The notes under the pieces: model-generated
Told to the model about the DNA's origin: nothing
The model's database searches: none
What the model saw: only the letters and a program-made list of their open reading frames with translations
Position numbers and translations under genes: made by a program
Assembly: GCA_027002265.1 (NCBI GenBank)
Contig: JAMOTM010000002.1
Span: 1-60,818, forward strand
DNA: 60,818 nucleotides
Source: Aquificota bacterium
Lineage (GTDB): Bacteria; Aquificota; Aquificia; Desulfurobacteriales; DQVG01
Direction: 5' to 3'
Part shown: in pieces, positions 1 through 59,558 of the stretch
How the letters are laid out: every line of letters begins with the position of its first letter
How positions within the stretch are numbered: position 1 is the first letter of the stretch

Positions 1-3000
1 TTCTTTTGAATCAAAATCATCATAAAAATCGAAAACTTGGGATCCATCTACATTATTTTTATCTTCTATTTTGGGAACTTGTTTTAAAATCAATGTTATA
101 TAGTCATTAGCAGGTAAGAAAGGAATTCTAACCCATATATATTTTTGTGTTTTCCAATTGATAGGTTCTGCTTTACATTCCCCACTATCTGTTTCAAAAC
201 AATAATTTAATTTCTTAGTACATTCTTCATCCAAACAAACTTCAAATGATGGTTGAGAAGTATTTGTTATATCTGATAAACATTCGCGTATGGATGAAAT
301 ATCTAACTTATATGTATAGTTATAAAGATCACAATTTCCTAAATTATAAACAGGTATTTTTCTTACACATCCTTCAAATGTAGTACTTGAAGATGTTTCC
401 ATAGTGCTATTAAAATAACATATATAAGAGTACTTAGGTTCATATTTAGCTAACTTTCTAACATAAATGTAATCATATATACTGTAACCATTATAACCTG
501 CTAAAATACCAATTTTTCCTTCAGTGAGATTAAGATCTTTAGTTTCTACTTGTTTATTATTATCAATATAGAAAATATGAGTTCCGTTTAGATAGTCCAA
601 TTTTAAAGTATGATACTTATAATTTTCTTCAAAGTTAACTCGATGTACATATATTTTTGTTTTATCAAAAAATGAAATATCTACATATCCTTTTGTTGGA
701 TCATCGTAATCATCATAATTTGAATATCTAGCTACGTATGATTTTTTATCACCTGTAAAATAGGTTATTCCGCATTGTTCATTATTATATTTATCACTTC
801 CTAGTTTACATCTAGCCACTATTTCAAAATATGGAGTTGTTTCTTTAGAGAACGAAGTTGAATAGTAAACTAAAGCATCATTATCATTTTTATCTGTTAT
901 GTTGATAATACCGTCATCTTTTAGTAAAGTATAATTTAAGTTAACTCCATCATTATATAGATCTGTTTTTTTCCATGTTAAACTAATATCATTTTTAAAA
1001 TTCTCATATAGATCAAAAACTTCCTTACCAGTCTTTGCGTAATATCCACTTTTTGGGTATACAATTAAATTTATAGTGCTATTTGCAGGTAATTCTGGTA
1101 CCTTTATCCAAATATTACCTGTCCAAAAATTCTTATCAAAACTATCTTTACAATCTAGATCTTCTTTGGGATCACAAAAAGTAGATTCGCATTCTCCGTT
1201 TTCTCTTTCAAAACAATATGGGACATCTTTCATTCCATCTTGGGTAACGATTTCAAACATATATGTGCCTAAACAATCTACAAGATTAAGAGCATCTATT
1301 TTTATAGGATAGTTATATAAAGGTACATTGTTAGGATTTTGAATTTTTATAACAACAAAATTACCTTTTGGAGGCGCAATGGTTATTGTTGTAGGTGAAG
1401 TTGAAGATGAAGTTTCAAATAAATTTTTTATAGTATTAACAATAACAAATTTTGAAGCAAAATTACCATTTGTATCTTTTACATCTAAGGTGATAATATG
1501 AAAACCTGGATCTTTGATAACGGTTATACATGATGTTTTATAAGATTTTGTAGGTACACTAAATTTTGCTGAACAGATAGGTACCTTTTCACCATCTAAA
1601 TATACATTCGTAGAGCTTAAAGTTGAATTAGGACTATGAACTTCATATGAAATGCTAACTTCCATAGGAGCATTTCCGTAAGTAGGAGTTACAACAAAAC
1701 TATCTATTAGTGGAGGAGGTAAAATTTTTATCGCTTCTCCAGAAGATGTAGAATTTATTGTGCCATTTATAAGCGCGCCTTCTACGATATTGTATACAGA
1801 TAGATTAATTTTGTTAGATTCACATCCACAACTACAGTATACCTTAGCTGTAAAGTCACCTGGTGATTTATAGGTATGAACAACATTATTTATACTTGTT
1901 ATATCCTTAAAATATGCATATTCTCCATCACCAAAACTAATAAAACCATCTTTATTGGTACATGTTGAAGTGCTTTCTACTTTCCATTCGAATTTTACAG
2001 GGTTTTCAGTTAACTTTAAAGTTGCAGTTGCATCTGATGATGAAGCATTGGCTATAAGCGTAAATTTTCCATTATCATTATCAAATTTATAAGCTAAAAA
2101 GGATGATACTTTACATTCTGATTTTGTAGGATCATATATATATACTGTTGTTGTTTTTGTTAATATTAAATTCCCTTCATCATCAAATATTTTTAATATA
2201 GGAGTATAAACACCAGGTGATGAATATGAATGTTCTACCTTATCCTGATAACCAAGACATTCTTCTGGGCCTTCTAAAGAAGCATTTACATTACCATCTC
2301 CAAAATCAACAGCACAAGATATACTTCCTTCTATATTTCCAGATAGGGTTGCAATCCACTTAAATTTAACATTTTCACCTATTTTTTGTTTCTGAGGATC
2401 TGCTTCAAATTTTTCTATTTCACCTACAATGTTCTTTATAGGGCACTCTGCTTTAGCTATGTTTAAAGGTAAATAACTTATAATATCGTCATAGAGCATC
2501 TTTGAGAAAATATCATTATCTGCAACTTTTGATGGGTCAGTAGCAAGTACCCATTCTTCGTTGGGATCATTAATAGTATAATTTTCATTAACCTTCCTGT
2601 AAAAATCAACTTTTTCGGTAGGAGGTATTAATTTTATTACTGGAACAACATAGTTATCGCCCTCTAAGTCAGTATCTAATTTTAAAATTGGAGTTTGTAT
2701 ATTTCCATTTTTTCCGCTGGATAAAATAACAGTAGTTACTTCTTCTAAAGTTCCATTGGCAGCTTTACAATTAAATAAAATTCCTTTGGAAGGATTATAT
2801 TTTTTTAACTCTTTTTTAAATGCTTCGTAATCTTTAATTAAACATACAAATAAATTTGTGTGTTTAAGAACACATGCGGTTGAACTTGATAATTTCTCAG
2901 ATGTTATATAGTAAAAAGGATGTCCCCAAACATCTTTTTTATGAGCAAGATACTCGGGTAGAGAGTATCTACCTAAAGTTCCTTCTTTATTAGCAACAAG

Positions 3001-3174
3001 TTTGAGATAATCTATGTTATCTTGCACATAACTGATAGCTCGTTTTAATTTAAATGTTTCTATTATTTTTGGTATAAAATTGGCAGTCATAGAAAGGATG
3101 ATAGAAATTATTAACATAGCAATGATAACTTCTATTAATGTAAAAGCTCTTTTGAAGTAATTAGAAATTCTCAT
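1..3174 (-). CDS. Giant prepilin-like surface protein with PKD and DUF2341 domains (partial, C terminus off window)
   Basis: The frame is open from the ATG at 3174 to base 1 (1,058 codons), so the C terminus is missing. The N terminus is a class III prepilin signal: short basic leader, likely cleavage after Ala10, then FTLIEV with Glu15 (Glu5 of the mature protein) and a hydrophobic helix to about residue 32. Behind the stem I read two PKD-like Ig domains (about 245-345 and 375-460, each with an FGDG turn), a further Ig-like stretch (about 490-570), a DUF2341-type domain (about 605-722, ending VFDLYENF), a LamG-like segment (about 728-905) and a second DUF2341 copy (about 930-1052, ending VFDFYDDF). 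The start overlaps the stop of the GspL-like gene by ATGA, so it belongs to the secretin operon. I infer a pseudopilus-tip or surface-binding protein. The ligand is unknown and the domain limits are by eye. Confidence 0.85.
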   Translation of the reverse strand, partial: MRISNYFKRAFTLIEVIIAMLIISIILSMTANFIPKIIETFKLKRAISYVQDNIDYLKLVANKEGTLGRYSLPEYLAHKKDVWGHPFYYITSEKLSSSTACVLKHTNLFVCLIKDYEAFKKELKKYNPSKGILFNCKAANGTLEEVTTVILSSGKNGNIQTPILKLDTDLEGDNYVVPVIKLIPPTEKVDFYRKVNENYTINDPNEEWVLATDPSKVADNDIFSKMLYDDIISYLPLNIAKAECPIKNIVGEIEKFEADPQKQKIGENVKFKWIATLSGNIEGSISCAVDFGDGNVNASLEGPEECLGYQDKVEHSYSSPGVYTPILKIFDDEGNLILTKTTTVYIYDPTKSECKVSSFLAYKFDNDNGKFTLIANASSSDATATLKLTENPVKFEWKVESTSTCTNKDGFISFGDGEYAYFKDITSINNVVHTYKSPGDFTAKVYCSCGCESNKINLSVYNIVEGALINGTINSTSSGEAIKILPPPLIDSFVVTPTYGNAPMEVSISYEVHSPNSTLSSTNVYLDGEKVPICSAKFSVPTKSYKTSCITVIKDPGFHIITLDVKDTNGNFASKFVIVNTIKNLFETSSSTSPTTITIAPPKGNFVVIKIQNPNNVPLYNYPIKIDALNLVDCLGTYMFEIVTQDGMKDVPYCFERENGECESTFCDPKEDLDCKDSFDKNFWTGNIWIKVPELPANSTINLIVYPKSGYYAKTGKEVFDLYENFKNDISLTWKKTDLYNDGVNLNYTLLKDDGIINITDKNDNDALVYYSTSFSKETTPYFEIVARCKLGSDKYNNEQCGITYFTGDKKSYVARYSNYDDYDDPTKGYVDISFFDKTKIYVHRVNFEENYKYHTLKLDYLNGTHIFYIDNNKQVETKDLNLTEGKIGILAGYNGYSIYDYIYVRKLAKYEPKYSYICYFNSTMETSSSTTFEGCVRKIPVYNLGNCDLYNYTYKLDISSIRECLSDITNTSQPSFEVCLDEECTKKLNYCFETDSGECKAEPINWKTQKYIWVRIPFLPANDYITLILKQVPKIEDKNNVDGSQVFDFYDDFDSKE

Positions 3175-4514
3175 TTTTCAATCCTCTCTAATGGAACAAC
3201 AACTTTAAACTTAGTTTGAGGTGGTCTGGGATAACGGGGCTCTAAATATATTTTAGAATTTCTAAAGTTATTTCTTAACTCAAAATATATACTTTTTAGC
3301 TTTCCTTTTGTATCACCTATCATTTTTCCCTTAATTAAGAGATATATCTCTTTATTATTCTTTTTTAATTCTATATTATCTATATATAATTCCCTATTGT
3401 ATATTTTCAATAGCTTAATACATTTATTTTCCATTAGTTTTAATGTTTTTAAAAATTTTAAAAAATTAGGTTTATCTATGGATATTAATTTTAACAAAGA
3501 TTCATATTTTTTCCAAAGATCATCAAATAATTTTCTTTTCTTCTCTAATGTAATGTACTGATTACTATAACTTTTTGCTAATTTATTTATTTGTAACTTT
3601 ACATTATCTAATTTATTTTTTAAATTTTTATATGCTGTATATGATGTATAAAAAGTAAAAATAATGTATAAACTTAAGAAGAAGTATAAAAACTTCAGAA
3701 GGTAATTAAAATATACTTTGTAGGATTTTATCTTAAAAATACTTTTTGGAGAGAAAAGTAAGAAGTAATAAATAGTATCCTCTATAATCTTAAAATTAAG
3801 GTTTTCTTTATTTTCGAGCTTTATATCTACTAAGTAAATAAGTTTTAAATTATAGTTACTGTATTTACTTGTGAAGTAAGAGATAATTCTATTTATATAA
3901 TCTAGATAATCGAAAGAAATAAAATCTATTATTATTTCAATTGGAAAATAGTCTTTAACAAGGATTACTTTTAACTCTTCTCCTAACTTTATTAATCCAA
4001 TTCCAAATTCATTATTTTTCAATTCAGATGAAATGCTAGCTGCTACGACAAATTCTATAGGGATTATATATAAATATTCAAAATCTAATTGCTTTTTTAT
4101 TTTCGATATCTCTTTTTTACTTATAAAGATAACTGAAAATATTTTTTCCTTTTTTTCTGGATCTTCATCTATTTCTTTAAAAAGAATATAATAATCTTTA
4201 GGATTTATTTTTAACTTTGCTTCCACATATGTATAAATATAATACTTTACTTTTTTGGGATTAGGTATAGGTAGGCTTATAAATTCCTGTCTAATATTAG
4301 GTATATTGACCACGCAATAATCCACTTTTGATAATTTAAAATCTACAGGTAGAAGTTTTTTTTCTCTTACAATAAAAAATTTACCATTATAAAAAACAGA
4401 AAAAATTTTTTTAGAAAGAAATTTTTCTAGAAGTTTTTTTATAAAGTTAAAATTTATACTATTTATATTTTCCAAATTACTAATTTTATTTTTTATATTT
4501 TCTAATTTTTCCAT
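3171..4514 (-). CDS. GspL / PilM-PilN-like inner-membrane assembly protein
   Basis: A 447-residue bitopic protein of the type II secretion / type IV pilus assembly platform. Residues 1 to about 255 form a cytoplasmic region with the alternating strands and helices expected of the actin-like PilM/GspL fold. A single membrane helix lies near 272-290 (FLYFFLSLYIIFTFY). A coiled-coil segment follows (LKNKLDNVKLQINKLA), then a periplasmic alpha/beta domain resembling PilN or the GspL C terminus. That is the layout of GspL, MshI and the PilO accessory protein of R64-type thin pili. It lies 27 nt after the secretin gene and overlaps the giant prepilin gene downstream by ATGA. In such machines it links the ATPase to the inner-membrane platform. 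Sequence identity to named families looks low, so the call rests on architecture and context. Confidence 0.6.
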   Translation of the reverse strand: MEKLENIKNKISNLENINSINFNFIKKLLEKFLSKKIFSVFYNGKFFIVREKKLLPVDFKLSKVDYCVVNIPNIRQEFISLPIPNPKKVKYYIYTYVEAKLKINPKDYYILFKEIDEDPEKKEKIFSVIFISKKEISKIKKQLDFEYLYIIPIEFVVAASISSELKNNEFGIGLIKLGEELKVILVKDYFPIEIIIDFISFDYLDYINRIISYFTSKYSNYNLKLIYLVDIKLENKENLNFKIIEDTIYYFLLFSPKSIFKIKSYKVYFNYLLKFLYFFLSLYIIFTFYTSYTAYKNLKNKLDNVKLQINKLAKSYSNQYITLEKKRKLFDDLWKKYESLLKLISIDKPNFLKFLKTLKLMENKCIKLLKIYNRELYIDNIELKKNNKEIYLLIKGKMIGDTKGKLKSIYFELRNNFRNSKIYLEPRYPRPPQTKFKVVVPLERIEK

Positions 4515-4541: not shown

Positions 4542-6089
4542 TTATCTTACAAGTTTTGCTTGTATGATTATTAAAAGTTGTTTCTTCTCCGATTGTTTAG
4601 ATAATGTTGATGTTAAATAATTAAACAATTTACTATTTGTCTGAGGTAATCCTTCAATATTTGTATTAATAGAATCATTTTTTAGTCCACCGAGAATAAC
4701 TATGTCTCCACTATTAATTTTTAATATTGTACTTATTACATTTGTAGATACAATTGGCGCCTCACTAGAACCATCAGGAGAAACAGACTTACCTTTAATT
4801 ACGTTTTTAACAGGTGTAATAACTAAATATATCTGATTTTGTTCATTAACTCGTGCCTTTAAAATTAAGACATACCCGTTAATGTAATTCTGAAAAGAAT
4901 AATTAGATAATGTTGTTCCATTTACTATGTTAGTAGAACTTTTTGTCCAAAATGGTTTTATTTCACCAGAAATTATTATAGCACTATATCCATTAGTTAG
5001 ACGAATTCTAGGTGTAGATAAAATTTTTACTTTTCCAATTTTTGTAAGAAAATTAAAAATGAAATTTTCTAATTTTGGTCCTGTCCCTACAGAACTTGCT
5101 TTTATAATTAGACCTGTTGCAGCAGTTGTTTCTAAAGGACTATATGCTATATTAAAATTGTCTAGCATTTTTGTTAATGCAATTTGCCAATTAACACCTT
5201 TATTTACTGCATTTTCCTCAGAGAAATCCAAAATAGTAATTTTTACATCTACTTCCTTACTATAGAAATATTTAAATCTTTGTACAATTTTATCTATTTC
5301 TTTTATATTCTTAGGTCTATCAGTAACAAGCAGTGTTCCTGTATCTTCATCTAAATAAAACTTTCCATATTTTGATATTGCTTTTTTTATAGCATTCTGT
5401 AAATTTAAATATGGATCATTAGTTTGAACATTTGTATACGAATTTTCCAAAGAATTTAATGCAGATATTTTATTTTCATTTGTTCCAAATATATTCCCAT
5501 TAATGAAAATAGTGGATTGAGAAGCAACTTTTGGAATTCCTACATCATATATTTTTGTAACGGTATCACTAATGATTAGTGTTCCTTTTTTTATTTCATA
5601 ATGAATATTTGCTATATTAGATATTAAATCTAAAACATCTTTTATTTTCTTGTTTTTTACTTTTATAGAAATTATCTTATCTTCTATTTTTACATTTGTA
5701 TTTAAGTTGTTTTTATATACGATATCTAAATCTGTTGCTTGCGATATTAAGTTTAAAATGTCCTTCAAGGGTGTATTTATAGCAACTATTGATATTTTTT
5801 TATTTAAAGCTTTAATTTGTGCTCCTTCCCATGATGGTAAAAGAATTAAAGGTTCTAAATAATCTTTTGGAATTTCAACCGTTGTTTTATTTTGAAGCAA
5901 TGTCATTATTTTTTTCTGTGTTTGATTAATCTTTTGTTGTGTAGCTATAATATTCGGTGGTTGTTCACCACATCCGAAAAGAAAAAAAGCGGATAAAAAG
6001 ATAAAGAAGATAGAATAAAAAAATCTATAAATATTTAATAATATATAATTTTTAAAATATTTTCCCCTATATGTAATTTTTTCTCCCAT
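4542..6089 (-). CDS. Lipoprotein secretin of type IV pilus / type II secretion family
   Basis: A 515-residue outer-membrane secretin. The N terminus has a hydrophobic signal ending in a lipobox-like FLFGC (Cys40), as in the lipoprotein secretins of IVb pili (PilN, BfpB). About residues 95-170 look like N0/N1 periplasmic domains (IKVKNKKIKDVLDLIS). A second small domain, about 235-270, has the LLVTDRPKNIKEID pattern seen before the barrel. The C-terminal secretin domain includes ILSTPRIRLTNGYSA and ends with DIVILGGLKND followed by GLP, the classic secretin signature. The secretin oligomer would form the outer-membrane gate for the pseudopili encoded nearby. Its start overlaps the upstream gene by 55 nt; no better-placed ATG precedes the signal sequence, so I keep 6089, but a shorter form using a rare start codon is possible. 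Confidence 0.88.
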   Translation of the reverse strand: MGEKITYRGKYFKNYILLNIYRFFYSIFFIFLSAFFLFGCGEQPPNIIATQQKINQTQKKIMTLLQNKTTVEIPKDYLEPLILLPSWEGAQIKALNKKISIVAINTPLKDILNLISQATDLDIVYKNNLNTNVKIEDKIISIKVKNKKIKDVLDLISNIANIHYEIKKGTLIISDTVTKIYDVGIPKVASQSTIFINGNIFGTNENKISALNSLENSYTNVQTNDPYLNLQNAIKKAISKYGKFYLDEDTGTLLVTDRPKNIKEIDKIVQRFKYFYSKEVDVKITILDFSEENAVNKGVNWQIALTKMLDNFNIAYSPLETTAATGLIIKASSVGTGPKLENFIFNFLTKIGKVKILSTPRIRLTNGYSAIIISGEIKPFWTKSSTNIVNGTTLSNYSFQNYINGYVLILKARVNEQNQIYLVITPVKNVIKGKSVSPDGSSEAPIVSTNVISTILKINSGDIVILGGLKNDSINTNIEGLPQTNSKLFNYLTSTLSKQSEKKQLLIIIQAKLVR

Positions 6090-6815: not shown

Positions 6816-7580
6816 ATGTTAAGAAAAGCGTTTTCTTTAATTGAATTGTCTATTGTTTTAATTATTATTGGTTTGTTATTAGCAGCCGTAATGAAAGGTA
6901 AAGATTTGATAAGAAGTGCAGAAATGAAAAAATTCTATAATAGATTTGTAAAAGAATGGGAATTGGCATATACTCAATACTATGATAGAACAGGCATGCC
7001 TTTGGGAGGACCATTAGTTACAAATAATACAGGTACAATTCCTGCTTTTGTAGGAGCAGATGCGCTTGTAAATAATACAGATTTTGTACTTAGAAGACCT
7101 GCTACTATAGAAAATCAAATAAATACTGTTGGTCTAGAGGTACCTACAAAGGATTATATTATAACTTTCACAAATGCACCGGCTTCTACTGTTTGGGTAA
7201 CTTTTGGATCTGATCCAGTAATCAAGAATGATAATCTAGAGGTTTGTTTGGAAGATAACTGTACTTCAAAAAATATCAAAGAATTGAATGGAAAGGGTGA
7301 TGGTAAAGGGAATTTTATGATTTTAGTTAATGTTCCATATGATGTTGCAGCTCAAATAGATAGAATTATTGATGGTATTGCAAATGGTAAAGATGGAGAT
7401 GTTGTATGTGTTTCTAATTATAAAGACCCAATAAATGAAGGAAAAATAGAAGATGCTAATATATTTAATACTACAGTCTTTAAAGATTTCGATAATAAAA
7501 CTTCTCCCTGTTTCGGAGCACTACACTGGGGTGATAAAGATCATCCTTACGTAACTCTTATGTACAAACTTGGAATCTAA
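6816..7580 (+). CDS. Type IV prepilin-like pseudopilin (likely major pilin)
   Basis: A 254-residue prepilin. Residues 1-5 form a short basic leader, cleavage is expected after Ala5, and the mature protein begins FSLIELSIVLIIIGLL with Glu10 as the conserved Glu5. The globular domain is neutral to acidic with several Cys (for example VCLEDNC, DVVCVSN and SPCFG near the C terminus) that could form disulfides in the periplasm. An excellent ribosome binding site (GGAGGT, 6806-6811) precedes the ATG. The gene is followed at once by a strong terminator at 7593, so it can be expressed as a single abundant transcript. That, with its own promoter at 6743-6751, is typical of the major subunit. The divergent group encodes the secretin and a giant prepilin-like partner. 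Confidence 0.88.
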   Translation: MLRKAFSLIELSIVLIIIGLLLAAVMKGKDLIRSAEMKKFYNRFVKEWELAYTQYYDRTGMPLGGPLVTNNTGTIPAFVGADALVNNTDFVLRRPATIENQINTVGLEVPTKDYIITFTNAPASTVWVTFGSDPVIKNDNLEVCLEDNCTSKNIKELNGKGDGKGNFMILVNVPYDVAAQIDRIIDGIANGKDGDVVCVSNYKDPINEGKIEDANIFNTTVFKDFDNKTSPCFGALHWGDKDHPYVTLMYKLGI

Positions 7581-7661: not shown

Positions 7662-8186
7662 ATGAAGAGAGTATTATTTTTTCTTTTGGTAAGTTTACTT
7701 TTTACAAATTCTTATGCTCTTTCTAAAAAGTATATAGATGGATATATTTGCTATCTTTATAACAAAAGGGATTTTGTAAATTTAGATTATTTTCTTAAGG
7801 AAAAAGTAAAGTTAAAAGATCTTTTTAAGTATCGCTTTTCTGATTGTACTAATAGGGCTCTTGGCCTTTATTTTTATCTAAATAATTGTTATGACTATGC
7901 TCTTTATTTCCTTTTAAAAGTTAGGCATTATACTTTGTCAGACTTGGTCAATCTTTCTGCAATTTATATTAAGAAAAAAGAGTATGACCAAGCTATAAAA
8001 ATTTTGAAACTTGCAAAGATAAAATACGGAGATGAAAAACATATTTTGATGAATTTGGCTATTAGTTATATAGGTAAGAAAAATTACTTAAAAGCAAGAG
8101 AGTATCTTTTAAAACTTTTGGAAATGGATATATCTAAAGATTTAAAAGATAGGGTTTTACAAATATTAAATTATATAGGTTATTAA
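7662..8186 (+). CDS. Secreted TPR protein of the pilus/secretion cluster
   Basis: A 174-residue protein with a Sec-type signal peptide (KRVLFFLLVSLLFTNSYA, residues 2-19). The rest consists of helical repeats. The clearest TPR units are about residues 100-160, with LVNLSAIYIKKKEYDQAIKI and LMNLAISYIGKKNYLKAREY. It sits one base before the GspC/PilP-like gene, in a group placed between pseudopilin and PilO-like genes. TPR proteins such as PilF/PilW act as pilotins for secretins, and that is the likeliest role. There is no obvious lipobox, so membrane anchoring is uncertain. Confidence 0.7.
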   Translation: MKRVLFFLLVSLLFTNSYALSKKYIDGYICYLYNKRDFVNLDYFLKEKVKLKDLFKYRFSDCTNRALGLYFYLNNCYDYALYFLLKVRHYTLSDLVNLSAIYIKKKEYDQAIKILKLAKIKYGDEKHILMNLAISYIGKKNYLKAREYLLKLLEMDISKDLKDRVLQILNYIGY

Positions 8187-8187
8187 A

Positions 8188-8670
8188 ATGTTTTTAAAGC
8201 TTATTTTAAGCTTTTTTATATTTTCAGAAACTTTACCTCCTATAAAGATCCATGATTTCTTTTCTGAGGATGTTTGCAATTTGGTTAAGATTTCTCTTAC
8301 TAAAAAAAATACTTCCAAAATTAATAAAAGGAAATATAGATTAAATAGGAAAAGAAAATTCTACAAAAAGAAAGTATCTAATAATAAGGTAAAATCTAAA
8401 AAACAAAATAAAAAATCTTCTAAAAACTTTCAAAATTTTTCTTATTGCACTTTAATCTCTCCTAAAAGATTTAAAAATATATATCTTGCTATAGCTTTAA
8501 AAGATGGGAAAAAATATCTTCTTTTTAATGGATCTTTGTATAAGGAAGGTGATTTTATTTTAATAGATAGAGAAAGCTATAAAATATTAAAAATTTCTTT
8601 AGACAAGATAATTTTGGAAAAAAATAAAAAATGTTATATTCTTCCGGTAGCGTTAAAAATAAACTCCTAG
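8188..8670 (+). CDS. GspC/PilP-like periplasmic connector (tentative)
   Basis: A 160-residue protein. A hydrophobic N terminus (FLKLILSFFIFSETL) is followed by a short acidic patch, then a very basic linker of about 40 residues (roughly 35-75, nearly all Lys, Arg, Asn, Ser). The C-terminal domain of about 75 residues is beta-rich (IALKDGKKYLLFNGSLYKEG, then GDFILIDRESYKILKIS). Small beta-sandwich domains with a strand-turn-GD pattern of this size are typical of the HR region of GspC and of PilP, which bind the secretin N0 domain. The gene lies 1 nt after the TPR gene and 13 nt before the PilO-like gene. The functional call is inference from fold pattern and context. Confidence 0.5.
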   Translation: MFLKLILSFFIFSETLPPIKIHDFFSEDVCNLVKISLTKKNTSKINKRKYRLNRKRKFYKKKVSNNKVKSKKQNKKSSKNFQNFSYCTLISPKRFKNIYLAIALKDGKKYLLFNGSLYKEGDFILIDRESYKILKISLDKIILEKNKKCYILPVALKINS

Positions 8671-8683
8671 TTTAGAGGAAAAA

Positions 8684-9202
8684 ATGAACTTTATAAAAAA
8701 ATATAAACTAGAAATTTTTTCTATTTTTCTTTTAATTTTAGCTGCCTTATCTGCTTTTTTCCAAGCTCAAGCTAAACTTATAGAGAAAAAAGTTGAAATA
8801 TATGAAAAAAAGATAAATAAAGAAAAAGCTTTGCTAAAAAAACTTTCTCAAAATATAAATACATTAACAAAATATATTATGGCTTTGCAAAAATTTAAGG
8901 AAATAGAAAAAAAATATGAACCTTTAGAAGTAGATTATACTACCGCCATTAATACTTATAATCAAATATTAACCTTAAAGAATTTATCTGAAAATAAAAA
9001 TAAACTTGAAATTACAACTCCCCAGACAAAGGGTAAGGAATTTTATTTTTATGTGACTATATCGGATCCAAAACTTTTTAATGATATTACAAAAAATCTC
9101 ATATTGACAAAAGATAAATTATTTTGTAGGGTGGAAGATTATAAAGATACTCGAAGTAAATATTTAGTAAAATTAAAATTGTTTTATATTTTAAAGGAGT
9201 AA
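8684..9202 (+). CDS. PilO/GspM-like inner-membrane protein
   Basis: A 172-residue bitopic protein: short basic N terminus, one membrane helix at about 8-26 (LEIFSIFLLILAALSAFFQA), a long coiled coil to about residue 75 (KLIEKKVEIYEKKINKEKAL) and a small alpha/beta periplasmic domain with alternating strands. This is the PilO/GspM plan: helix, coiled coil, ferredoxin-like domain. These proteins pair with PilN/GspL, here the product at 3171-4514. Start chosen at 8684 after AGAGGAAAAA. It is the last gene of the plus-strand group and converges on the ech operon. Identity to PilO is low, so the exact family stays open. Confidence 0.62.
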   Translation: MNFIKKYKLEIFSIFLLILAALSAFFQAQAKLIEKKVEIYEKKINKEKALLKKLSQNINTLTKYIMALQKFKEIEKKYEPLEVDYTTAINTYNQILTLKNLSENKNKLEITTPQTKGKEFYFYVTISDPKLFNDITKNLILTKDKLFCRVEDYKDTRSKYLVKLKLFYILKE

Positions 9203-9235: not shown

Positions 9236-9712
9236 TTAATTCTTTTTATCTTGATTATCTTCCTTTTTTCCTTGTTTAGCTTGCTGAGCTTTTTTAAGAG
9301 CTTCTTGTCTTTTTTTAGCAAGAGCTAGTTGCCATTTCTTTTTGCTTTCTTCGGCAAGCTTTTCAATTTCAAACCAAGTTTCATTTGGATTATCTTCCTT
9401 GGTAGCAGGCTCTGGCATCTTATCAGTTTGAATTAAAGCACCTTCTTTTGGACACTCTCTAACACACTCTCCACAATATATACATAGATAAGGATTATAT
9501 TTGTATTCTAGATTTCTAGAACCATCTTCTGGATAGATAAATCTTATAGCTCCAGCCGGACATACAAGTTCACATTTAGTACAAAATATACATTTTTCCT
9601 TGTTATAAACAATTAAACCTCTATAACCCTTTGGAGGTTCAGTTCCAAAACCAGGTAAAGTAGCTGGTTCACTAAATAAATTTTTTAAAGATTCTATAAA
9701 CATCTTAAGCAT
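9236..9712 (-). CDS. echF: Ech hydrogenase 2x[4Fe-4S] subunit EchF
   Basis: A polyferredoxin subunit of 158 residues. It carries two classical [4Fe-4S] motifs, CIFCTKCELVCP (about 41-52) and CIYCGECVRECP (about 77-88), the pattern of EchF, HycF and NuoI. These clusters pass electrons from soluble ferredoxin to the EchC cluster and the NiFe site. The final 50 residues are a highly charged Lys/Gln/Glu tail (AKQGKKEDNQDKKN at the end), longer than the minimal ferredoxin fold. It is the last gene of echABCDEF, 14 nt after echE, with a terminator 9 nt past the stop. Confidence 0.93.
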   Translation of the reverse strand: MLKMFIESLKNLFSEPATLPGFGTEPPKGYRGLIVYNKEKCIFCTKCELVCPAGAIRFIYPEDGSRNLEYKYNPYLCIYCGECVRECPKEGALIQTDKMPEPATKEDNPNETWFEIEKLAEESKKKWQLALAKKRQEALKKAQQAKQGKKEDNQDKKN

Positions 9713-9726
9713 TTTTCACCTCCAAA

Positions 9727-10812
9727 CTACCTTGCCGTACAAGATAGACAAGGATCAAAACTAATTATAATAGCTGGAACATCTGCGTAATTTGCACCTA
9801 TAAAAAGCTCTTTCAAAACGGGTATGTTTGAAAAGGTAGGAGTTTTTACTCTCATTCTAGTTAAGATTTGCTTTCCATCTCCCCTAACATGATAAAAAAG
9901 CTCTCCTCTTGGAGCTTCCCAACGACATACAGCTTCTCCTTTTGGCATACCTTTTACATTTTCTTTGTAATTTCCTTCTGGAAGGCCATCTAAAACATTC
10001 CATATCATTCTCATGGAAATAAGAAGCTCATCCATTCTCACCATATTTCTTGCCCAAATATCACCATCTTCATAAACTACCATTTCAAAACCAAGTTCTC
10101 TATAGGGAAGAGCATCAAATTCAGCTCTTGCATCTGTTCTTACTCCAGAACCTCTTGCAACGGGACCTGCTGCATTATATTTTTCTGCCATTTCTTTTGG
10201 AATTACTCCAACACCTTTCCATCTTAAATTTAAGGTATAGTCGTTTAAATATACATCTCTAAACCAAAAGAGCCTTTCTTCAAGTTTTTTCAATTTTTTT
10301 CTGAGCTCTTTTTCAACTTCTGGAGTTAGATCTCTATTTACTCCACCTATGCATCCATAGTCAAACTGAACTCTGTTTCCCGTAAGAAGCTCCAAGCATT
10401 CCATTACAAGTTCTCTATCTCTAAAAAGATACATAACTAAATTTTCATAACCTGCAGCTTCAGCTACGTGAGCCATTGCAAAAAGATGAGAGTGGATTCT
10501 ATCAAGTTCATGAGCTAAAACTCTTAGGTATTTAGCTCTTTTTGGAGCTTCAAATTCTAGGAGTTTTTCTATAGCAATTATATAGGCCATATTATGAGAT
10601 ATAGAACATAATCCACAAATTCTTGGAACAACGTATGCTACTTGTTTATAACCAATTTTAGTTTGACAAGCTTTTTCTATACCTCTGTGAACATATCCAA
10701 CATCTACTTCTACATTTGTAATTATTTCATTTTCTGTTTCAAAAACAAATCTTACAGGTTCTGGTAAAGCAACGTGTTGACTACCAAAAGGAACAATCAT
10801 TTTATTTCCCAT
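9727..10812 (-). CDS. echE: Ech [NiFe]-hydrogenase large subunit EchE
   Basis: The catalytic subunit of a group 4 energy-converting [NiFe]-hydrogenase, 361 residues. The L1 motif RICGLC gives Cys66 and Cys69. The L2 motif DPCLSCTAR at the very C terminus gives Cys355 and Cys358. All four Ni/Fe ligands are present, so this is a true hydrogenase rather than a complex I NuoD relative. The protein stops right after L2, as described for EchE and CooH, so no C-terminal peptide needs to be removed by a maturation protease. The start at 10812 has AAGGAGGT 8 nt upstream. It lies within the complete echABCDEF gene order. It reduces protons with electrons from ferredoxin or runs in reverse. Confidence 0.96.
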   Translation of the reverse strand: MGNKMIVPFGSQHVALPEPVRFVFETENEIITNVEVDVGYVHRGIEKACQTKIGYKQVAYVVPRICGLCSISHNMAYIIAIEKLLEFEAPKRAKYLRVLAHELDRIHSHLFAMAHVAEAAGYENLVMYLFRDRELVMECLELLTGNRVQFDYGCIGGVNRDLTPEVEKELRKKLKKLEERLFWFRDVYLNDYTLNLRWKGVGVIPKEMAEKYNAAGPVARGSGVRTDARAEFDALPYRELGFEMVVYEDGDIWARNMVRMDELLISMRMIWNVLDGLPEGNYKENVKGMPKGEAVCRWEAPRGELFYHVRGDGKQILTRMRVKTPTFSNIPVLKELFIGANYADVPAIIISFDPCLSCTAR

Positions 10813-10815
10813 AAT

Positions 10816-11169
10816 TTATGACCTCCTTAGTGGTGCAGGTGGGCTATCGGGTTCTAAAAAGAGACCTTTTTGAGCACCTTCTATTTTTAATCCAAACAAA
10901 TCTGCAAGCTCAGCTTCGGATATCCAAGCAGAAGGAATAATATCTGTTATAGTTGGAATGGTATCTTCGTACGTAACGTCTAAAGAAAAGGCTATTGGCT
11001 CTTCCATAGTATCATATTTTGAAAAAAAGTATTTTAAATTCACTTTACCATTCCCAAAATCTATTGCATTTATAGTTATAAAGTGATATTTAGAAGGATC
11101 ATAAAAATTTTTAATATCATCCTTTAATTTTTCCAAAGAAGTTTCTATAACTTTAAAGTTTTTATACAT
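10816..11169 (-). CDS. echD: Ech hydrogenase subunit EchD (NuoC-like)
   Basis: A small peripheral subunit corresponding to NuoC (30-kDa subunit) and EchD. I place the start at ATG 11169 (MYKNFKVIE), preceded by GGGAGG with a 6-nt spacer. A start 39 nt further upstream would lie inside echC and lacks this signal. The protein is then 117 residues. It has the NuoC-like end AELADLFGLKIEGA, close to the ELYDMFGI element of the family, and finishes with PPAPLRRS. The subunit holds no cofactor and stabilises the EchE-EchC core. It lies 3 nt before echE. Confidence 0.88.
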   Translation of the reverse strand: MYKNFKVIETSLEKLKDDIKNFYDPSKYHFITINAIDFGNGKVNLKYFFSKYDTMEEPIAFSLDVTYEDTIPTITDIIPSAWISEAELADLFGLKIEGAQKGLFLEPDSPPAPLRRS

Positions 11170-11185
11170 TATTATCCTCCCTTTT

Positions 11186-11755
11186 TTAATCACATTTAGG
11201 AGTTTCAAGCTTTCTTTGAATATATTTAGAAACTAAATCATAAATAATCTTTCTTCTATCCACTACCTGACCGTGCATAAGCATTTTTGCTACTATTTTT
11301 TCATATTCCTTCTTTATTACAGTTGGAATTTCTATAGTATCTTTAGTTTTCTTTTCCCAAATTTCTAAAGCTAAAGCTATTCCCTTAAGTATATTTTCAG
11401 GCCTTGCAGCACACCCGGGAACATAAACATCAACGGGAATATATCTATCTACTCCATTTTCTACATTATACATATGTCTAAATACTCCCCCAGTACAAGC
11501 GCAAGCCCCTACCGCAACTACAACCTTAGGTTCGGGCATTTGCATATATAGTCGAAGTAACCTAGCTCTTGTTCTTTTTGTAACGGGACCTGTTACAACT
11601 AAAATATCTGCTTGCTTTGGATTACCTTTATTTATAATTCCAAATCTTTCTACATCATACTTTGGTCCAGTACAAGCTAAAATTTCAATATCACATCCAT
11701 TGCAACTCCCACAGTTATAGTGAAGAATCCATGGAGATTTTTTTCTTATACTCAT
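11186..11755 (-). CDS. echC: Ech hydrogenase small subunit EchC (NuoB-like)
   Basis: Subunit that carries the [4Fe-4S] cluster next to the NiFe site, homologous to NuoB. The N terminus has CGSCNGCDIE, then VVAVGACACTGG and VYVPGCAARPENI, which supply the cluster cysteines. The start is ATG 11755, which has GGAGGT 7 nt upstream and overlaps the echB stop by ATGA. A longer in-frame form starting at 11770 lacks a good site. The product is 189 residues with a C-terminal helical tail of about 50 residues. Expected role: electron transfer from the EchF clusters to EchE. Confidence 0.95.
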   Translation of the reverse strand: MSIRKKSPWILHYNCGSCNGCDIEILACTGPKYDVERFGIINKGNPKQADILVVTGPVTKRTRARLLRLYMQMPEPKVVVAVGACACTGGVFRHMYNVENGVDRYIPVDVYVPGCAARPENILKGIALALEIWEKKTKDTIEIPTVIKKEYEKIVAKMLMHGQVVDRRKIIYDLVSKYIQRKLETPKCD

Positions 11756-12597
11756 AGTACATACCTCCATAGGGCTAAAACAAAAATATTAAGTGCAGCA
11801 AGAGGTAAAAGGAAAAACCAAGCAAATTTAATCATTTGATGGAAAGTAGTTCTACAAGTAGAGTTGTCTAAAGCATTGACGAAGATGAAAACAATTAATG
11901 AAAGTGCAAGTCCGAGCCACCAATTAGCACCAGTAAATAAAAATACTATAGCAAATACAAAAACATATTCTATCCATTTAGCAGTGTATATTGCTTCGTA
12001 GAAAAAGCCACTATAATCTACCTCAGGTCCTCCAATAATTTCTTGATGAGCCTCCGAAATATCAAAAGGAGATTTTTTTAGTATTGCTGGAATTGCAAGG
12101 ACAAAAGCGATAAATACTAAAGGTAAATAAACTAAAGGTATTCCAGGGTATTTAAACATTTCTTCTACACTCCAAGTTCCCGTTACTAAAAAGAGTCCAA
12201 CAGCTAGTAAAATTAAAAGAGGTTCTACTGCCATCAAATGAACTATTTCTCTTAAAGATCCCATAACGCTATAGGGAGAAAGTACACTAAATCCACCTAT
12301 AATGAAAAATGCCATAGCTAAAATATGAAGAAAAAGACCTACTAAAATATTTGGTCCACATAAAAAAGCCGATAGAGCAAACCACGTTGCAAAAAAGAAG
12401 GCAATACCCATCATACTGTGAAAAGAGTGAACTTGAATAGGTCTTTTTTGTAAAAGTTTTACAAAATCATAAAAAGGTTGTAAAAGTGGAGGACCTTGTC
12501 TATTTTGCATTCTAGCTCTTACTATTCTTTCAAATCCATATATAAATCCGCCTATAATAGGAGATAAAAACGCTATTGTTTTTAATATCCACGCCAT
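11752..12597 (-). CDS. echB: Ech hydrogenase membrane subunit EchB (NuoH-like)
   Basis: A 281-residue integral membrane subunit with about eight hydrophobic helices, homologous to NuoH, HycD and EchB. It anchors the hydrogenase module to the ion-translocating membrane part. Recognisable NuoH-like elements are the amphipathic loop ERIVRARMQNRQGP near the N terminus and the acidic loop FDISEAHQEIIGGPEVDYSG at about 178-197, which includes the conserved EA.QE and GPE.DYSG motifs. The start touches the echA stop and the end overlaps echC by ATGA, so the operon is tightly coupled. Confidence 0.95.
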   Translation of the reverse strand: MAWILKTIAFLSPIIGGFIYGFERIVRARMQNRQGPPLLQPFYDFVKLLQKRPIQVHSFHSMMGIAFFFATWFALSAFLCGPNILVGLFLHILAMAFFIIGGFSVLSPYSVMGSLREIVHLMAVEPLLILLAVGLFLVTGTWSVEEMFKYPGIPLVYLPLVFIAFVLAIPAILKKSPFDISEAHQEIIGGPEVDYSGFFYEAIYTAKWIEYVFVFAIVFLFTGANWWLGLALSLIVFIFVNALDNSTCRTTFHQMIKFAWFFLLPLAALNIFVLALWRYVL

Positions 12598-53575: not shown

Positions 53576-55240
53576 GTGCAACAACCTAAAGTTCGTTTAG
53601 GAGAAATTCTTGTAAAACTTGGTTTTATTACAGAAGAGCATATTGAAGTTGCCTTAAAAATTCAAAAAATTCATAAAAAGAAACTTGGAGAAATTTTAAA
53701 AGAACTTGGATTTGTATCTCCAAGAGAATTGGCTTTAGCTTTAGCTTATCAAGCAAATTTACCATATATAAATCTAGAAGAGTACTATCCGAAAAAGGAA
53801 GCTTTGTTTTTACTTACAAAAAGAATTTCTAGTTTATATAATGCTCTTTGTGTGGATATTGATCCTAAAGAAAATAGTGTATTAGTTGTAATAGATGATC
53901 CTTATGATATTAGAAAACAAGCTACTATAAGAAGTTTATTAAAAAACTATAAAGTAAAATTTGCCATTTCTGAGCCGGAAGCTATAATTCGAGCTATAGA
54001 AATTTACTATACCTACTATACAAATCCATTAGATAAGCAATTTACCGAAGAAGTTTTAAAACCTGATCCAGATATAGAAAAAGTAGTAGATTTAATTTTA
54101 AATATGGCAATATACTATAACGCTTCAGATATTCATATAAATCCTCTTTCTAATATATCTTTCTTATTTTTAAGAATAGATGGAATTTTACAACCTATGA
54201 CAGTTATACCTTACTCTTTGCATGGGCCGATAGTTTCAAAAATAAAGCTTATGGCTAATATGAATGTTGCAGAAAGAAGAATTCCTCAAGATGGATCATT
54301 TAGCTATTCGAGTTTAGGACAAAAAGTAGATGTTAGAGTATCTACCCTTCCAACGGCCTTTGGTGAAAAAGTTGTTATGAGAGTCCTTAAAAAGGATATC
54401 TCTAAACTTAACCTTGATTTTCTTGGTTTCTTGGAACCTCAGAAGCAGCTTCTTAGAAAAGCAATTAATTTATCTTTTGGAATGGTCATAGTTTCAGGTC
54501 CAACTGGTTCGGGGAAATCTACAACTTTATATTCTCTTTTAAGAAGTATTAATTATTTAAAGCGAAATGTAGTTACTGTAGAAGATCCAATAGAATATCG
54601 CTTTAATTTTATTTATCAAACGGAAATAAACACTGCAATTGGATATAAATTTTCTACAGCTTTAAAATATTTTATGCGTCAGGACCCAGATGTTATTTTA
54701 CTTGGGGAAATTAGAGATGATGAAACTGCAAACACTGCCATAGAGGCAGCAAACACAGGTCATTTACTTTTATCAACTATTCATGCTAACTGCTCTGTTA
54801 CAACTGTTCAAAGACTTTTAAATTTAGTTCGTGATAAGGATATGGCTTTATCGGTTTTAAAAGTAATCTCTGCTCAAAGACTTTTAAGAAAGCTTTGTCC
54901 TTTCTGTAAAGAAGAAGCAAAAGAAGATATTGAAATTTTAAAATCAAAGTATCCTACAGTTTTTGAACTTTTAAAAGAAGAACCAAAGGTGTATAGAGCA
55001 AAGGGTTGTGAAAGATGTGGGGGAAGAGGATATATTGGTAGAACGGTTTTAGCAGAAGTATTAGAGTTAGATGATAATTTAATTAATATGTTTTATCAAA
55101 ATGCTTCCTTAGTAGATATCAAAAAGAAACTTGAAGAACAAAATTTTTTAGATATGTCAAAAGTTGCAGCTTACAAGATTCTTACCGGTGAAACCGATAT
55201 AAATGAAGCCAAGCGGGTTCTTGGGGCAAATTTTGTGTGA
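53576..55240 (+). CDS. Type II secretion / type IV pilus assembly ATPase (GspE/PilB)
   Basis: A 554-residue hexameric motor. Start GTG 53576 with AGGAG upstream. The N-terminal MshEN domain (about 5-75: KVRLGEILVKLGFITEEHIE) may bind c-di-GMP, which fits the EAL protein at 14660. The ATPase has Walker A VSGPTGSGKSTTLYSLL (about 306-322), an Asp box DVRVSTLPTAFGEKVVMRVL, Walker B DPDVILLGEIRDDETA, His box GHLLLSTIHANCSVTT and a zinc tetracysteine (LCPFCKEE and CERCGGRGY). It powers pseudopilus assembly. The next prepilin gene overlaps its 3' end by 38 nt. Confidence 0.93.
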   Translation: MQQPKVRLGEILVKLGFITEEHIEVALKIQKIHKKKLGEILKELGFVSPRELALALAYQANLPYINLEEYYPKKEALFLLTKRISSLYNALCVDIDPKENSVLVVIDDPYDIRKQATIRSLLKNYKVKFAISEPEAIIRAIEIYYTYYTNPLDKQFTEEVLKPDPDIEKVVDLILNMAIYYNASDIHINPLSNISFLFLRIDGILQPMTVIPYSLHGPIVSKIKLMANMNVAERRIPQDGSFSYSSLGQKVDVRVSTLPTAFGEKVVMRVLKKDISKLNLDFLGFLEPQKQLLRKAINLSFGMVIVSGPTGSGKSTTLYSLLRSINYLKRNVVTVEDPIEYRFNFIYQTEINTAIGYKFSTALKYFMRQDPDVILLGEIRDDETANTAIEAANTGHLLLSTIHANCSVTTVQRLLNLVRDKDMALSVLKVISAQRLLRKLCPFCKEEAKEDIEILKSKYPTVFELLKEEPKVYRAKGCERCGGRGYIGRTVLAEVLELDDNLINMFYQNASLVDIKKKLEEQNFLDMSKVAAYKILTGETDINEAKRVLGANFV

Positions 55241-56603
55241 TAATAAAAGAAAATCTATTTCTCAAACCGTAACTCAAAGATTAAAATTAAAAAAACAAAG
55301 AAAAAAGTTTTTTAAATGTTCTTATACCTTAATAGAAATTGCAATTGTTCTTTTAATTCTTGGAATATTAATTTCTATCTTTTCTTCAACCTGGACAGCT
55401 TTTATTGCATATTACCATCAATTAAAATATGAAGAAAGAATAAAAAAAATAAAGTCAGAGCTTCTTTCTAACTCTTTAGATTTAGATGATTTTAATTTAT
55501 TTTTAAGTTCTTCTCTTTTAAAAAAATATTATCCACAAAGTTATATGATATATTCTCAGGCTTTTTTAAAAACTTATCCTATGCCCTGCAATTATCAGAT
55601 TGATAGTCCTAAAAATTTTGATGCAAGTTTTTTAAAATTAAAATATTTAAACCAAGATATAAATAATATTCTTTATATAGTTGTTCTAGATGGGAAAGGT
55701 AAGGTAAATAAAGATTTTAAATTTCTAGATGAAAACTATCTTGAGGTTAAAGATCCTAAACTTAAATTTTTTTATGTTACTTTGGATGATTTGAAATATA
55801 AATATTGTCCTTCAAAAAAAATATCAAATTACTATATAGATTGTGTAAAACCAAAAGAAATTATTAACTTTTATAAAGAAGCTTCTTTAAAAATAATATA
55901 TCCTGCAAAATATACATACTTAAAATATTCTACTTTTAATACCGTTTACTCTTTATCTAAAAGTAAGAAAAATATAAATATAGCTTTATCTTCCCCTATA
56001 AATTCTTTTACATTTTTTCTTTATGATTCTTCGATGAACTTGATTGATAAAAGGAAAGAGTATTTAGCTTATCTAGATGAAAATTTGATTCCTGAAGATT
56101 ATAATCTTACTTTAAAAGTGTCCTCTTTAGGAAAAAATCTATATAAAATTTCTTGGAAAATTGGAAATTTAAATATGAAAACATATAAATGCTTAATTGA
56201 TTTTGGAGATGGAGAAAACATGTATATTCCAAATTGTGAAAAATATAGCTATCTTCTTCATAGATATAAATACGAAGGAAATTTTGAACTTAAATTTTTT
56301 ATAAGTAATGGAGATAAAATTTTATATAATCAAACTTTATTATCTATTGAAAATTATAATCTTAAGCCGTATATAGATTTTTTTCAAAATAAGGAGCTTT
56401 TGGAATTTTTCATTTCAGATAATGCAGAAGATAAAGATATTTGTTATGTGTATTTAAATAGTAAGCTTTTTTTAAAATCAAATAACTGCAAACATATATC
56501 TTTGAAACTTACAAAATACGATTTTCCATGTAGTTTAAAGTTAGTTATTCTTGATAAAAACAAACAAAAAACTTCTTTATGTGATATTCTTAACTTGAAA
56601 TAA
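55203..56603 (+). CDS. Large prepilin-like protein with PKD-like C-terminal domain
   Basis: A 466-residue prepilin-like protein with an unusually long leader: about 40 basic residues before the stem SYTLIEIAIVLLILGILISI, with Tyr at +1 and Ser at -1 where Phe and Gly are common. Glu is at mature position 5. The globular part is long and beta-rich. A PKD-like segment (CLIDFGDGENMYIPNC, about 335-350) lies in the last third with several paired cysteines. The start overlaps gspE-like by 38 nt; an internal TTG at 55233 would shorten the leader by 10 residues. It is the second prepilin-PKD fusion in the window and may be a minor or tip subunit. Confidence 0.78.
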   Translation: MKPSGFLGQILCDNKRKSISQTVTQRLKLKKQRKKFFKCSYTLIEIAIVLLILGILISIFSSTWTAFIAYYHQLKYEERIKKIKSELLSNSLDLDDFNLFLSSSLLKKYYPQSYMIYSQAFLKTYPMPCNYQIDSPKNFDASFLKLKYLNQDINNILYIVVLDGKGKVNKDFKFLDENYLEVKDPKLKFFYVTLDDLKYKYCPSKKISNYYIDCVKPKEIINFYKEASLKIIYPAKYTYLKYSTFNTVYSLSKSKKNINIALSSPINSFTFFLYDSSMNLIDKRKEYLAYLDENLIPEDYNLTLKVSSLGKNLYKISWKIGNLNMKTYKCLIDFGDGENMYIPNCEKYSYLLHRYKYEGNFELKFFISNGDKILYNQTLLSIENYNLKPYIDFFQNKELLEFFISDNAEDKDICYVYLNSKLFLKSNNCKHISLKLTKYDFPCSLKLVILDKNKQKTSLCDILNLK

Positions 56604-56606
56604 TTT

Positions 56607-57860
56607 TTAGAATCCTCCGCCTTTTCCAATAATTTTTCCAATTTGAGAGTAAATTGGATAAAATACAGCCATAATCATAGCTAAAGTAATAATACCTGTA
56701 AATGCAATTAGTAAAGGTTCTATTAATTTTGGAATAGTAGATAAAACTCTGTCAAGCTTTTCCTTATAAAAATTTGCAATAACTTCAAGTTGTTCATCTA
56801 AAGTACCTGTTTTTTCTCCTACCGCTACATATCTTAAAAAGAAAGGAGGAAACAAATTTGTAGCTCTAAAAGCTTCGGCTAAAGATTCTCCCTTATTTAC
56901 CCTTTCATTAATTTCATTTATAGCTCTATAAAATACAGCATTATCTATAACTGAACGTAAAATAGCAAACATTTTTTCCATACTAGAACCTGATTTTAAA
57001 AGAGAAGACATAAAAGAAGCTATTAAAAAAAGATAGTACTCTTTTGTTAATCTTCCAATAATTGGGAGTTTCATTTTTATTTTATCTATTATATAAATAA
57101 GAAAATGATCCTTCCCATAGTGTCTCTTTATAAATTTTAAAAGAATTATAAAACCAAATATAAAACCTATTACTTTTAAAAAGTAAATTAAAATTAGCTC
57201 TCTTTGTTTAGAAAGCTTTAAAAGAAATAGCGTATAAGCTGGAAGCTCCAAACCTAAACTAGATAAAAATGTACTTATTTTGGGGATAACAACGTATATC
57301 CAAACAAATAAAGACGCAATTATTACAATCAAACTAATTATAGGGTATATTGATGCACTTTTAATTTGGGATTTAACATTTTCTATAAATTCAATTCTTT
57401 GAGATGCATAAATTAAGTTTTCAGCTAGATTACCTGTTTCTTCCCCAATTTCTGCAAAAGCAATTACAATAGGTGGAACAAACTTTAGTTTTTTTAAAGC
57501 TTGAGTAAAGGTCCCTCCAGAAGACAAAGTTTGAATAATTTCTCTAACCGCAGCTTTGCCTCGACGAGACTCTATTTCCTCTTGAATGGAGATAAGAAGT
57601 TCAAGTAAGGGTATACCTGCTTTAATACCTATTCCAACGGACTTTAAAAAGTCTGCAAGTTCCCGAGGTGACATATAGGGAGAAGGAGAAAATATGTATT
57701 TTATTAGGTAATATATAATCGAAGGTATTCTTATTAATCGTTCAGGAATTAAAGATAAAGCTGTAAGTCTTTCAATGGCATCAGCTTTATCTATAGCTTC
57801 TATAATACCTGATACAGTTTCTCCGCTTGGATCTGTAGCTCTGTAGTAATAATAAGCCAT
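56607..57860 (-). CDS. Type II secretion / type IV pilus platform protein (GspF/PilC)
   Basis: A 417-residue polytopic inner-membrane protein of the GspF family. Two T2SSF repeats: about 65-190 with LADFLKSVGIGIKAGIPLLE and FAEIGEETGNLAENL, and about 275-400 with ASFMSSLLKSGSSMEKMFAI and YVAVGEKTGTLDEQL. The paired motifs GEETGNL and GEKTGTL are diagnostic. Three membrane helices lie in the second half of each repeat. It is convergent with the prepilin gene, the stops being 3 nt apart. It acts with the ATPase at 53576. Confidence 0.93.
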   Translation of the reverse strand: MAYYYYRATDPSGETVSGIIEAIDKADAIERLTALSLIPERLIRIPSIIYYLIKYIFSPSPYMSPRELADFLKSVGIGIKAGIPLLELLISIQEEIESRRGKAAVREIIQTLSSGGTFTQALKKLKFVPPIVIAFAEIGEETGNLAENLIYASQRIEFIENVKSQIKSASIYPIISLIVIIASLFVWIYVVIPKISTFLSSLGLELPAYTLFLLKLSKQRELILIYFLKVIGFIFGFIILLKFIKRHYGKDHFLIYIIDKIKMKLPIIGRLTKEYYLFLIASFMSSLLKSGSSMEKMFAILRSVIDNAVFYRAINEINERVNKGESLAEAFRATNLFPPFFLRYVAVGEKTGTLDEQLEVIANFYKEKLDRVLSTIPKLIEPLLIAFTGIITLAMIMAVFYPIYSQIGKIIGKGGGF

Positions 57861-58847: not shown

Positions 58848-59558
58848 ATGCTTATAGCTTATACTCCAGTTACATTTTATAAAAAAGAATTTTTAAGAGA
58901 TGAAGATGGAAAACCTTATTTGCCGGGTTCTTTAGTAAGAGATGCAATAAAAACTGCCTCAATATTTTACTTTATAAAGAAGGATAAAGAGATTGAAAAT
59001 AAAGTGAAAAAATATTTGCTTTCCGAAAAGTTAAAACTAGAAGAGGTTGTAGATACTATTGAAGATATAGTTTTTAAAAAACATCCTATTTTAGATGGTT
59101 TAGAAGTAGATGAGAAAATATATCTTCCCGAAGAGAAAATTAAGGAAGCAAATGTAGCTGTTTTTGATTTAAAAACAAAGGTTATAAAAGAATTTTTTAA
59201 AGCCGAAGTTTTTAAAGGAAGTGTAGATGTAAAGTTTTCTTCTCCTTATAAAGAAAAAATAAAGGCTGCCTGTCATTCTTTTTGTGAAGCTTTAGCAAGG
59301 ATAGAGCATGAAATGCTTAAAGATCATCCTTTAGATATGTTTTATCAAGAACTTCTAAATCAAATAAAACATTTTGAAATTCCTTTGAGACTTGGTTTTT
59401 GGACTCGGGTAACATTTGGTGGAAATTTACTTTTCTTCTGGAAAATAAAAGAAGTAAGAGAATTTATTATGAAAAAATTAAAAGTTGATATCTTGCCTCG
59501 CTATATACTATTCATTCCTTCCGAAAATGCAACTTTAGGTTGGTCAGAAATTAAATAA
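58848..59558 (+). CDS. Compact RAMP-superfamily protein, Csm5-like
   Basis: A 236-residue protein with the marks of type III CRISPR RAMP proteins of the Csm5 kind. The first strand is IAYTPVTFYK (usual form: TPVHIG), followed by KPYLPGSLVRDAIKTA (23-37; usual PYIPGSSIKGAIRTA). The middle has FFKAEVFKGSVDVKF, like the family's E-x-x-P-x-G-x-x-F-x-G. The C-terminal RLGFWTRVTFGG (181-192) stands where the Gly-rich loop is expected, and the end ATLGWSEIK resembles the LGW-x-K/R-L end of Csm5. It is shorter than Csm5 (350-450), lacking long insertions. No array, cas10 or other csm gene is in the window. GGGAGG precedes the ATG. A terminator follows directly. Confidence 0.65.
   Translation: MLIAYTPVTFYKKEFLRDEDGKPYLPGSLVRDAIKTASIFYFIKKDKEIENKVKKYLLSEKLKLEEVVDTIEDIVFKKHPILDGLEVDEKIYLPEEKIKEANVAVFDLKTKVIKEFFKAEVFKGSVDVKFSSPYKEKIKAACHSFCEALARIEHEMLKDHPLDMFYQELLNQIKHFEIPLRLGFWTRVTFGGNLLFFWKIKEVREFIMKKLKVDILPRYILFIPSENATLGWSEIK

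Follow-up and report, generated by a model that had tools for sequence, protein, structure and literature searches.

The window analysed here, 60,818 bases long, is an entire contig (C2) of a 1.39-Mb genome assembled in 81 contigs. At its left end lies a reverse-strand open reading frame of 1,058 codons, which runs from position 3174 to position 1 free of stops and is cut off by the contig end. The end of another contig, C43, is identical to positions 1-127 of the window. This exact 127-base overlap is of the kind that assemblers leave at a break, and no further occurrence of the stretch was found anywhere in the genome. The frame runs on into C43 for 1,858 residues, to a stop at C43:99937, and the joined protein has 2,916 residues, with a mass of ~331 kDa and a pI of 5.0 before processing. 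The window encodes ~36% of it, about the first third. The initial annotation had reported more than 1,000 residues downstream of a prepilin signal and had advised obtaining the rest of the gene; the open frame bears out this length, and the remainder is located on C43. The features of the gene and of the pilus genes around it are given in Table 1.

Table 1. Features of the giant prepilin gene and of the pilus genes in the window
Feature	Position	Strand	Basis or remark
Giant modular prepilin gene, 5' part (1,058 of 2,916 codons)	1..3174	-	Continues into contig C43
Class III prepilin signal, leader ending KRA/FTLIE (Ala at -1, Glu at +5)	3085..3153	-	PF07963, TIGR02532
Minor-pilin domain common to the phylum	2440..3174	-	Residues 1-245; profile A3
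PKD domain 1 (FGDG)	2143..2379	-	PF00801, best stretch residues 266-344
PKD domain 2 (FGDG), limits approximate	1795..2037	-	Second PF00801 stretch, residues ~380-460
Ig-like segment, limits approximate	1420..1734	-	Residues ~481-585; position and sequence only
DUF2341 copy 1	1027..1362	-	PF10102; resembles copy 2 (2.8e-10)
Lectin-like segment 1 (inferred)	439..1026	-	VFDLYENF start and YIYVRK end, as in other segments
DUF2341 copy 2, continued on C43	40..417	-	PF10102 on both contigs
447-aa protein with a single membrane helix between cytoplasmic and periplasmic parts	3171..4514	-	MshI/PilN-like by layout only
Secretin, closest to MshL	4542..6089	-	PF00263, 1.3e-18
Prepilin, likely major pilin	6816..7580	+	TIGR02532 above cut-off
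TPR protein with two small single-pass neighbours	7662..9202	+	TPR families; other two by position only
Pilus extension ATPase, PilB/MshE type, c-di-GMP-binding motif	53576..55240	+	T2SSE 8.8e-111, MshEN
Second modular minor pilin of 466 aa, with the giant's pilin domain and one FGDG module	55203..56603	+	A3, 9.5e-44
Inner-membrane platform protein, PilC/GspF type	56607..57860	-	T2SSF 7.9e-45

The class III prepilin signal noticed initially was recovered above cut-off by both Pfam (N_methyl, residues 8-30, 8.4e-6) and NCBIfam (6.4e-6). Its alanine instead of glycine at position -1 may lower processing. The minor-pilin domain has full-length matches to its profile in many genomes of the class (6.2e-64 for the giant's own match), and the N-terminus matches Desulfurobacteriales minor pilins in phmmer searches (6e-9 to 1.8e-7). 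The protein has the features of a modular type IV pilin, namely a class III signal, a pilin module homologous to other pilins and added domains that are not pilus-specific (PKD, DUF2341, L-type lectin and GGGWT).

The cargo behind the minor-pilin domain comprises ~2,650 residues. The pilin domain is followed by two PKD domains, an Ig-like segment, DUF2341/lectin-like units, Cys-rich IDPDG repeats and a fibrinogen-like GGGWT C-terminus. Pfam, the check proposed in the initial annotation, found PKD twice (7.4e-11) and DUF2341 twice (1.2e-11) in the window protein, in agreement with the two FGDG-type PKD modules and two DUF2341 copies first read there. The near-identical VFD-F/L-Y-x-x-F motifs are also both present (VFDLYENF at residue ~719, VFDFYDDF at ~1047) and mark the end of DUF2341 and the start of the next segment. 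The proposed LamG-like region did not hold, as no LamG or Laminin_G model matched within the window; a clear lectin lies just past its edge. The Ig-like segment belongs to no curated family and gave nothing significant in Pfam.

In the joined protein, DUF2341 copies lie near residues 605-716, 920-1045, 1275-1490, 1690-1790, 1850-1956 and 2070-2193. Five are found by Pfam and the fourth by internal comparison, while a degenerate seventh near 2378-2475 was placed from a motif alone, for a total of six or seven. Five lectin-like segments stand behind copies 1, 2, 3, 5 and 6; they start with F-x-F/L-Y-x-x-F, and several end in DWIRxRK. The first (~717-912), within the window, had no Pfam match and is considered lectin-like from its position and its start and end motifs. 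The second (~1046-1272) matched PF18483 with 47.8 bits (E 2.1e-12), below the curated cut-off of 78.3. It retains ADGIGY and LELDTYKN, the motifs with which L-type lectins bind sugar and metal, and appears to be a recognisable L-type lectin. In Pfam, four of the five segments had no lectin family match, and PDB sequence searches with the lectin segments returned a weak seed-lectin match alone (E 0.17). A predicted structure of a DUF2341-lectin unit (pLDDT 44.6) was discarded. The Cys-rich C..IDPDG repeats (~2515-2715) resemble the start of the fibrinogen-like domain by internal comparison.

This last domain (residues ~2690-2916) closes the joined protein and scores above the NCBIfam cut-off for GGGWT_bact (NF040941, 38.8 bits against 30). 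It retains 35 of the 37 columns conserved in its relatives. The best of these, among the top 80 of over 386 loci in the named genomes, is a Bacteroidota protein (L043) with 44% identity over 210 aa. A structure model was made from L043 (pLDDT 97.4); the domains that it matched, with probability 1.0 and TM 0.46-0.49, were those of angiopoietins and ficolins. In the alignment behind the second scan (A1), four of the rows were variants invented to broaden the motif; its matches were used and its conservation was not. Among the 136 genomes of the class, the fibrinogen-like domain was found in this genome only. Its DNA has a G+C content of 33.8%, versus ~28% in the rest of the gene, which is consistent with later acquisition; no donor emerged from a tree of such domains. 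Several tandem fibrinogen-like domains per protein were observed in Lentisphaerota and Myxococcota (L045, L046, L051, L061).

The giant gene's start and the stop of the gene before it overlap (ATGA), and that gene in turn follows the MshL-like secretin gene. The 447-aa protein had no family match. With the secretin, TIGR02519 (MshL) scored 104.9 bits, compared with 59 for PilQ and 57 for GspD, none above cut-off. The likely major pilin has counterparts in Desulfurobacterium thermolithotrophum and in a further genome (G014), and the TPR protein and its two small neighbours are probable pilus assembly accessories. The extension ATPase scored 62 bits with NF053729, above cut-off, and 430 bits with PilB versus 406 with GspE, whereas the platform protein scored 195 bits with GspF and 170 with PilC. 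A prepilin peptidase and PilT are encoded on other contigs. Among the PilT, c-di-GMP motif, secretin and PilB-versus-GspE scores, the family cut-off is exceeded by PilT and the c-di-GMP motif only. In Vibrio cholerae, c-di-GMP bound to MshE drives extension of the MSHA pilus and PilT drives its retraction (PMC7096442). The MshL-like secretin, the ATPase with its c-di-GMP motif and PilT together favour a retractable MSHA-like pilus, with MshL and MshE as best matches and the secretin below the MshL cut-off.

Elsewhere in the window, the genes at 9236-14456 resemble, on reading their sequences, a membrane-bound group 4 NiFe hydrogenase complex. A lone Csm5-like RAMP protein (58848-59558; PADLOC Csm5, 3e-6) is encoded beside a UPF0128 protein, and no other CRISPR genes were seen within the stretch read.

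The pilin-domain profile had matches in 119 of the 136 genomes, many of them short and covering the signal region alone; among the matches listed, full-length ones lie in frames of ~270-773 residues. Loss of the prepilin site in relatives had been named as an observation that would refute the pilus-presented tip adhesin, and the site is kept in the relatives of the pilin domain. When the cargo of 26 relatives was scanned, He_PIG was found in 15, an L-type lectin in three and DUF2341 in one. DUF2341 occurs in 2 of the 136 genomes of the class. One relative of 694 aa (G099) carries two Ig domains and one DUF2341-lectin unit and is plausibly a simple form of the giant. In D. thermolithotrophum the secretin, TPR protein, minor prepilins and PilB are clustered and the prepilins match the N-terminus of the giant; the present genome belongs to the same taxonomic order but to another family. 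No ortholog emerged for the protein as a whole, and a search of the named genomes with the window protein gave no relative. Minor pilins from another family of the class (f3; L149, L151, L154, L156) carry C-terminal L-type lectins whose binding motifs are intact. A 511-aa prepilin on contig C8 (L029, 181-1716) has an FGDG module and, towards the C-terminus, a stretch rich in Gly and Arg.

Our preferred explanation, which we consider probable, is that the giant belongs to the modular minor type IV pilins, sits at the tip of a retractable MSHA-like pilus and acts there as a multivalent glycan adhesin, the tip location and the binding both being deduced. The adhesin argument is carried mostly by the lectin and fibrinogen-like modules, both beyond the window. 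That C2 and C43 carry one gene is suggested by a computational join. The join is supported by DUF2341 copy 2, which is completed across the junction. That the assembler left the contigs unjoined and that the proteins are repetitive might suggest instead an artefact, by which two separate genes with a common repeat have been merged. Against this stand the exact and genome-unique overlap, the continuous frame, the completion of copy 2 and the near absence of DUF2341 otherwise from the class, and we regard such an artefact as extremely improbable.

The cargo could also be mainly structural, a long spacer or shield on the pilus or the cell surface, with the giant still a minor pilin and ligand binding left to the fibrinogen-like domain or to nothing at all. 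Recognisable binding motifs occur in one lectin-like segment only, and there is no shown ligand for PKD or DUF2341; however, the L-type lectin and the fibrinogen-like domain retain conserved residues and lectin cargo recurs among the relatives, which makes a mainly structural role unlikely. The initial annotation placed a modular adhesin or substrate-capture device on a pseudopilus. Its adhesin part fits and is strengthened by the lectin and fibrinogen-like modules, but the pilus genes with PilT point to an MSHA-like pilus and away from a type II secretion pseudopilus with the giant as its substrate-capture tip. Pseudopilins do carry the same signal, and the platform protein is slightly closer to GspF than to PilC. 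The secretin (MshL over GspD) and the ATPase (PilB over GspE) lean the other way, both with scores below cut-off, and together with the presence of PilT they render a type II system very unlikely.

For the MSHA-like tip adhesin that we favour, prepilin peptidase would cleave the leader and the PilB/PilC-type machine would insert the giant pilin at the start of the pilus. The cargo would precede the shaft on the way out through the MshL-like secretin, passage of the large folded chain being assumed. It would form a long flexible tip fibre with several weak carbohydrate-binding sites in series and the fibrinogen-like domain distal, of some tens of nanometres as estimated from the domain count. 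PilT retraction would pull the cell towards the bound target, for example other cells or biofilm polysaccharide. We infer presentation at the tip from the published model for modular pilins (PMC8179133, PMC9934059). A fuller version, with a fibre of tens of nanometres, many glycan sites in series and a horizontally acquired, animal-like fibrinogen cap serving to recognise and reel in cells, is offered tentatively, the chances being somewhat against it as a whole.

The giant illustrates the reach of the strategy of grafting modules onto a pilin in a diderm thermophile. Its simple relatives in the same phylum let the expansion of the cargo be traced stepwise, and it makes the passage of a very large folded cargo through a pilus secretin testable. 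Among the papers searched, none mentions fibrinogen-like, type IV pili and prepilin together.

The initial annotation compared the protein with PilV or PilY1, but their defining domains are absent and its relatives are the modular pilins PilB and PilC of Streptococcus sanguinis. The N-terminal domain of R64-type PilV shufflon proteins had no Pfam match in the giant. DUF6701, a domain of MshQ, was not found in it by Pfam either, and MshQ is set apart by this domain only. PilC/PilY1 are tip adhesins, similar in concept to the role proposed for the giant as large proteins displayed at the filament tip, and are not pilins; their beta-propeller (IPR008707 in PMC8179133) has no Pfam match in the giant, in which a prepilin signal is present. 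MshQ is a large putative adhesin of the MSHA pilus (PMC7096442), as we propose for the giant. The fibrinogen-like recognition fold is held in common with ficolins and bacterial GGGWT proteins; unlike the giant, the bacterial GGGWT frames showed no prepilin signal in a motif scan (top 80 of over 386 loci).

Modular pilins number more than 1,200 proteins in 264 architectures, and the most extreme one named has 860 residues with 12 copies of one motif (PMC8179133). Like the giant, S. sanguinis PilC and PilB have a class III signal and a pilin module followed by non-pilus domains (PMC9934059, PMC8179133). PilC, which binds glycans, has an Ig-like module followed by a ConA-like lectin module (PMC9934059), in principle the same order as in the giant. 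The giant differs in its size (~331 kDa versus 50.5 kDa for PilB), its tandem DUF2341-lectin units, its fibrinogen-like end and its diderm MSHA-like system. The modular minor pilins of its own phylum (for example G099, 694 aa, and G052, 614 aa) share its pilin domain and likewise carry Ig-like cargo and then an L-type lectin or a DUF2341-lectin unit. They have a single unit instead of five or more, are without the fibrinogen-like domain, and reach at most ~773 aa among the matches listed, compared with 2,916. The giant is thus an extreme variant of the known modular pilins and not a new kind.
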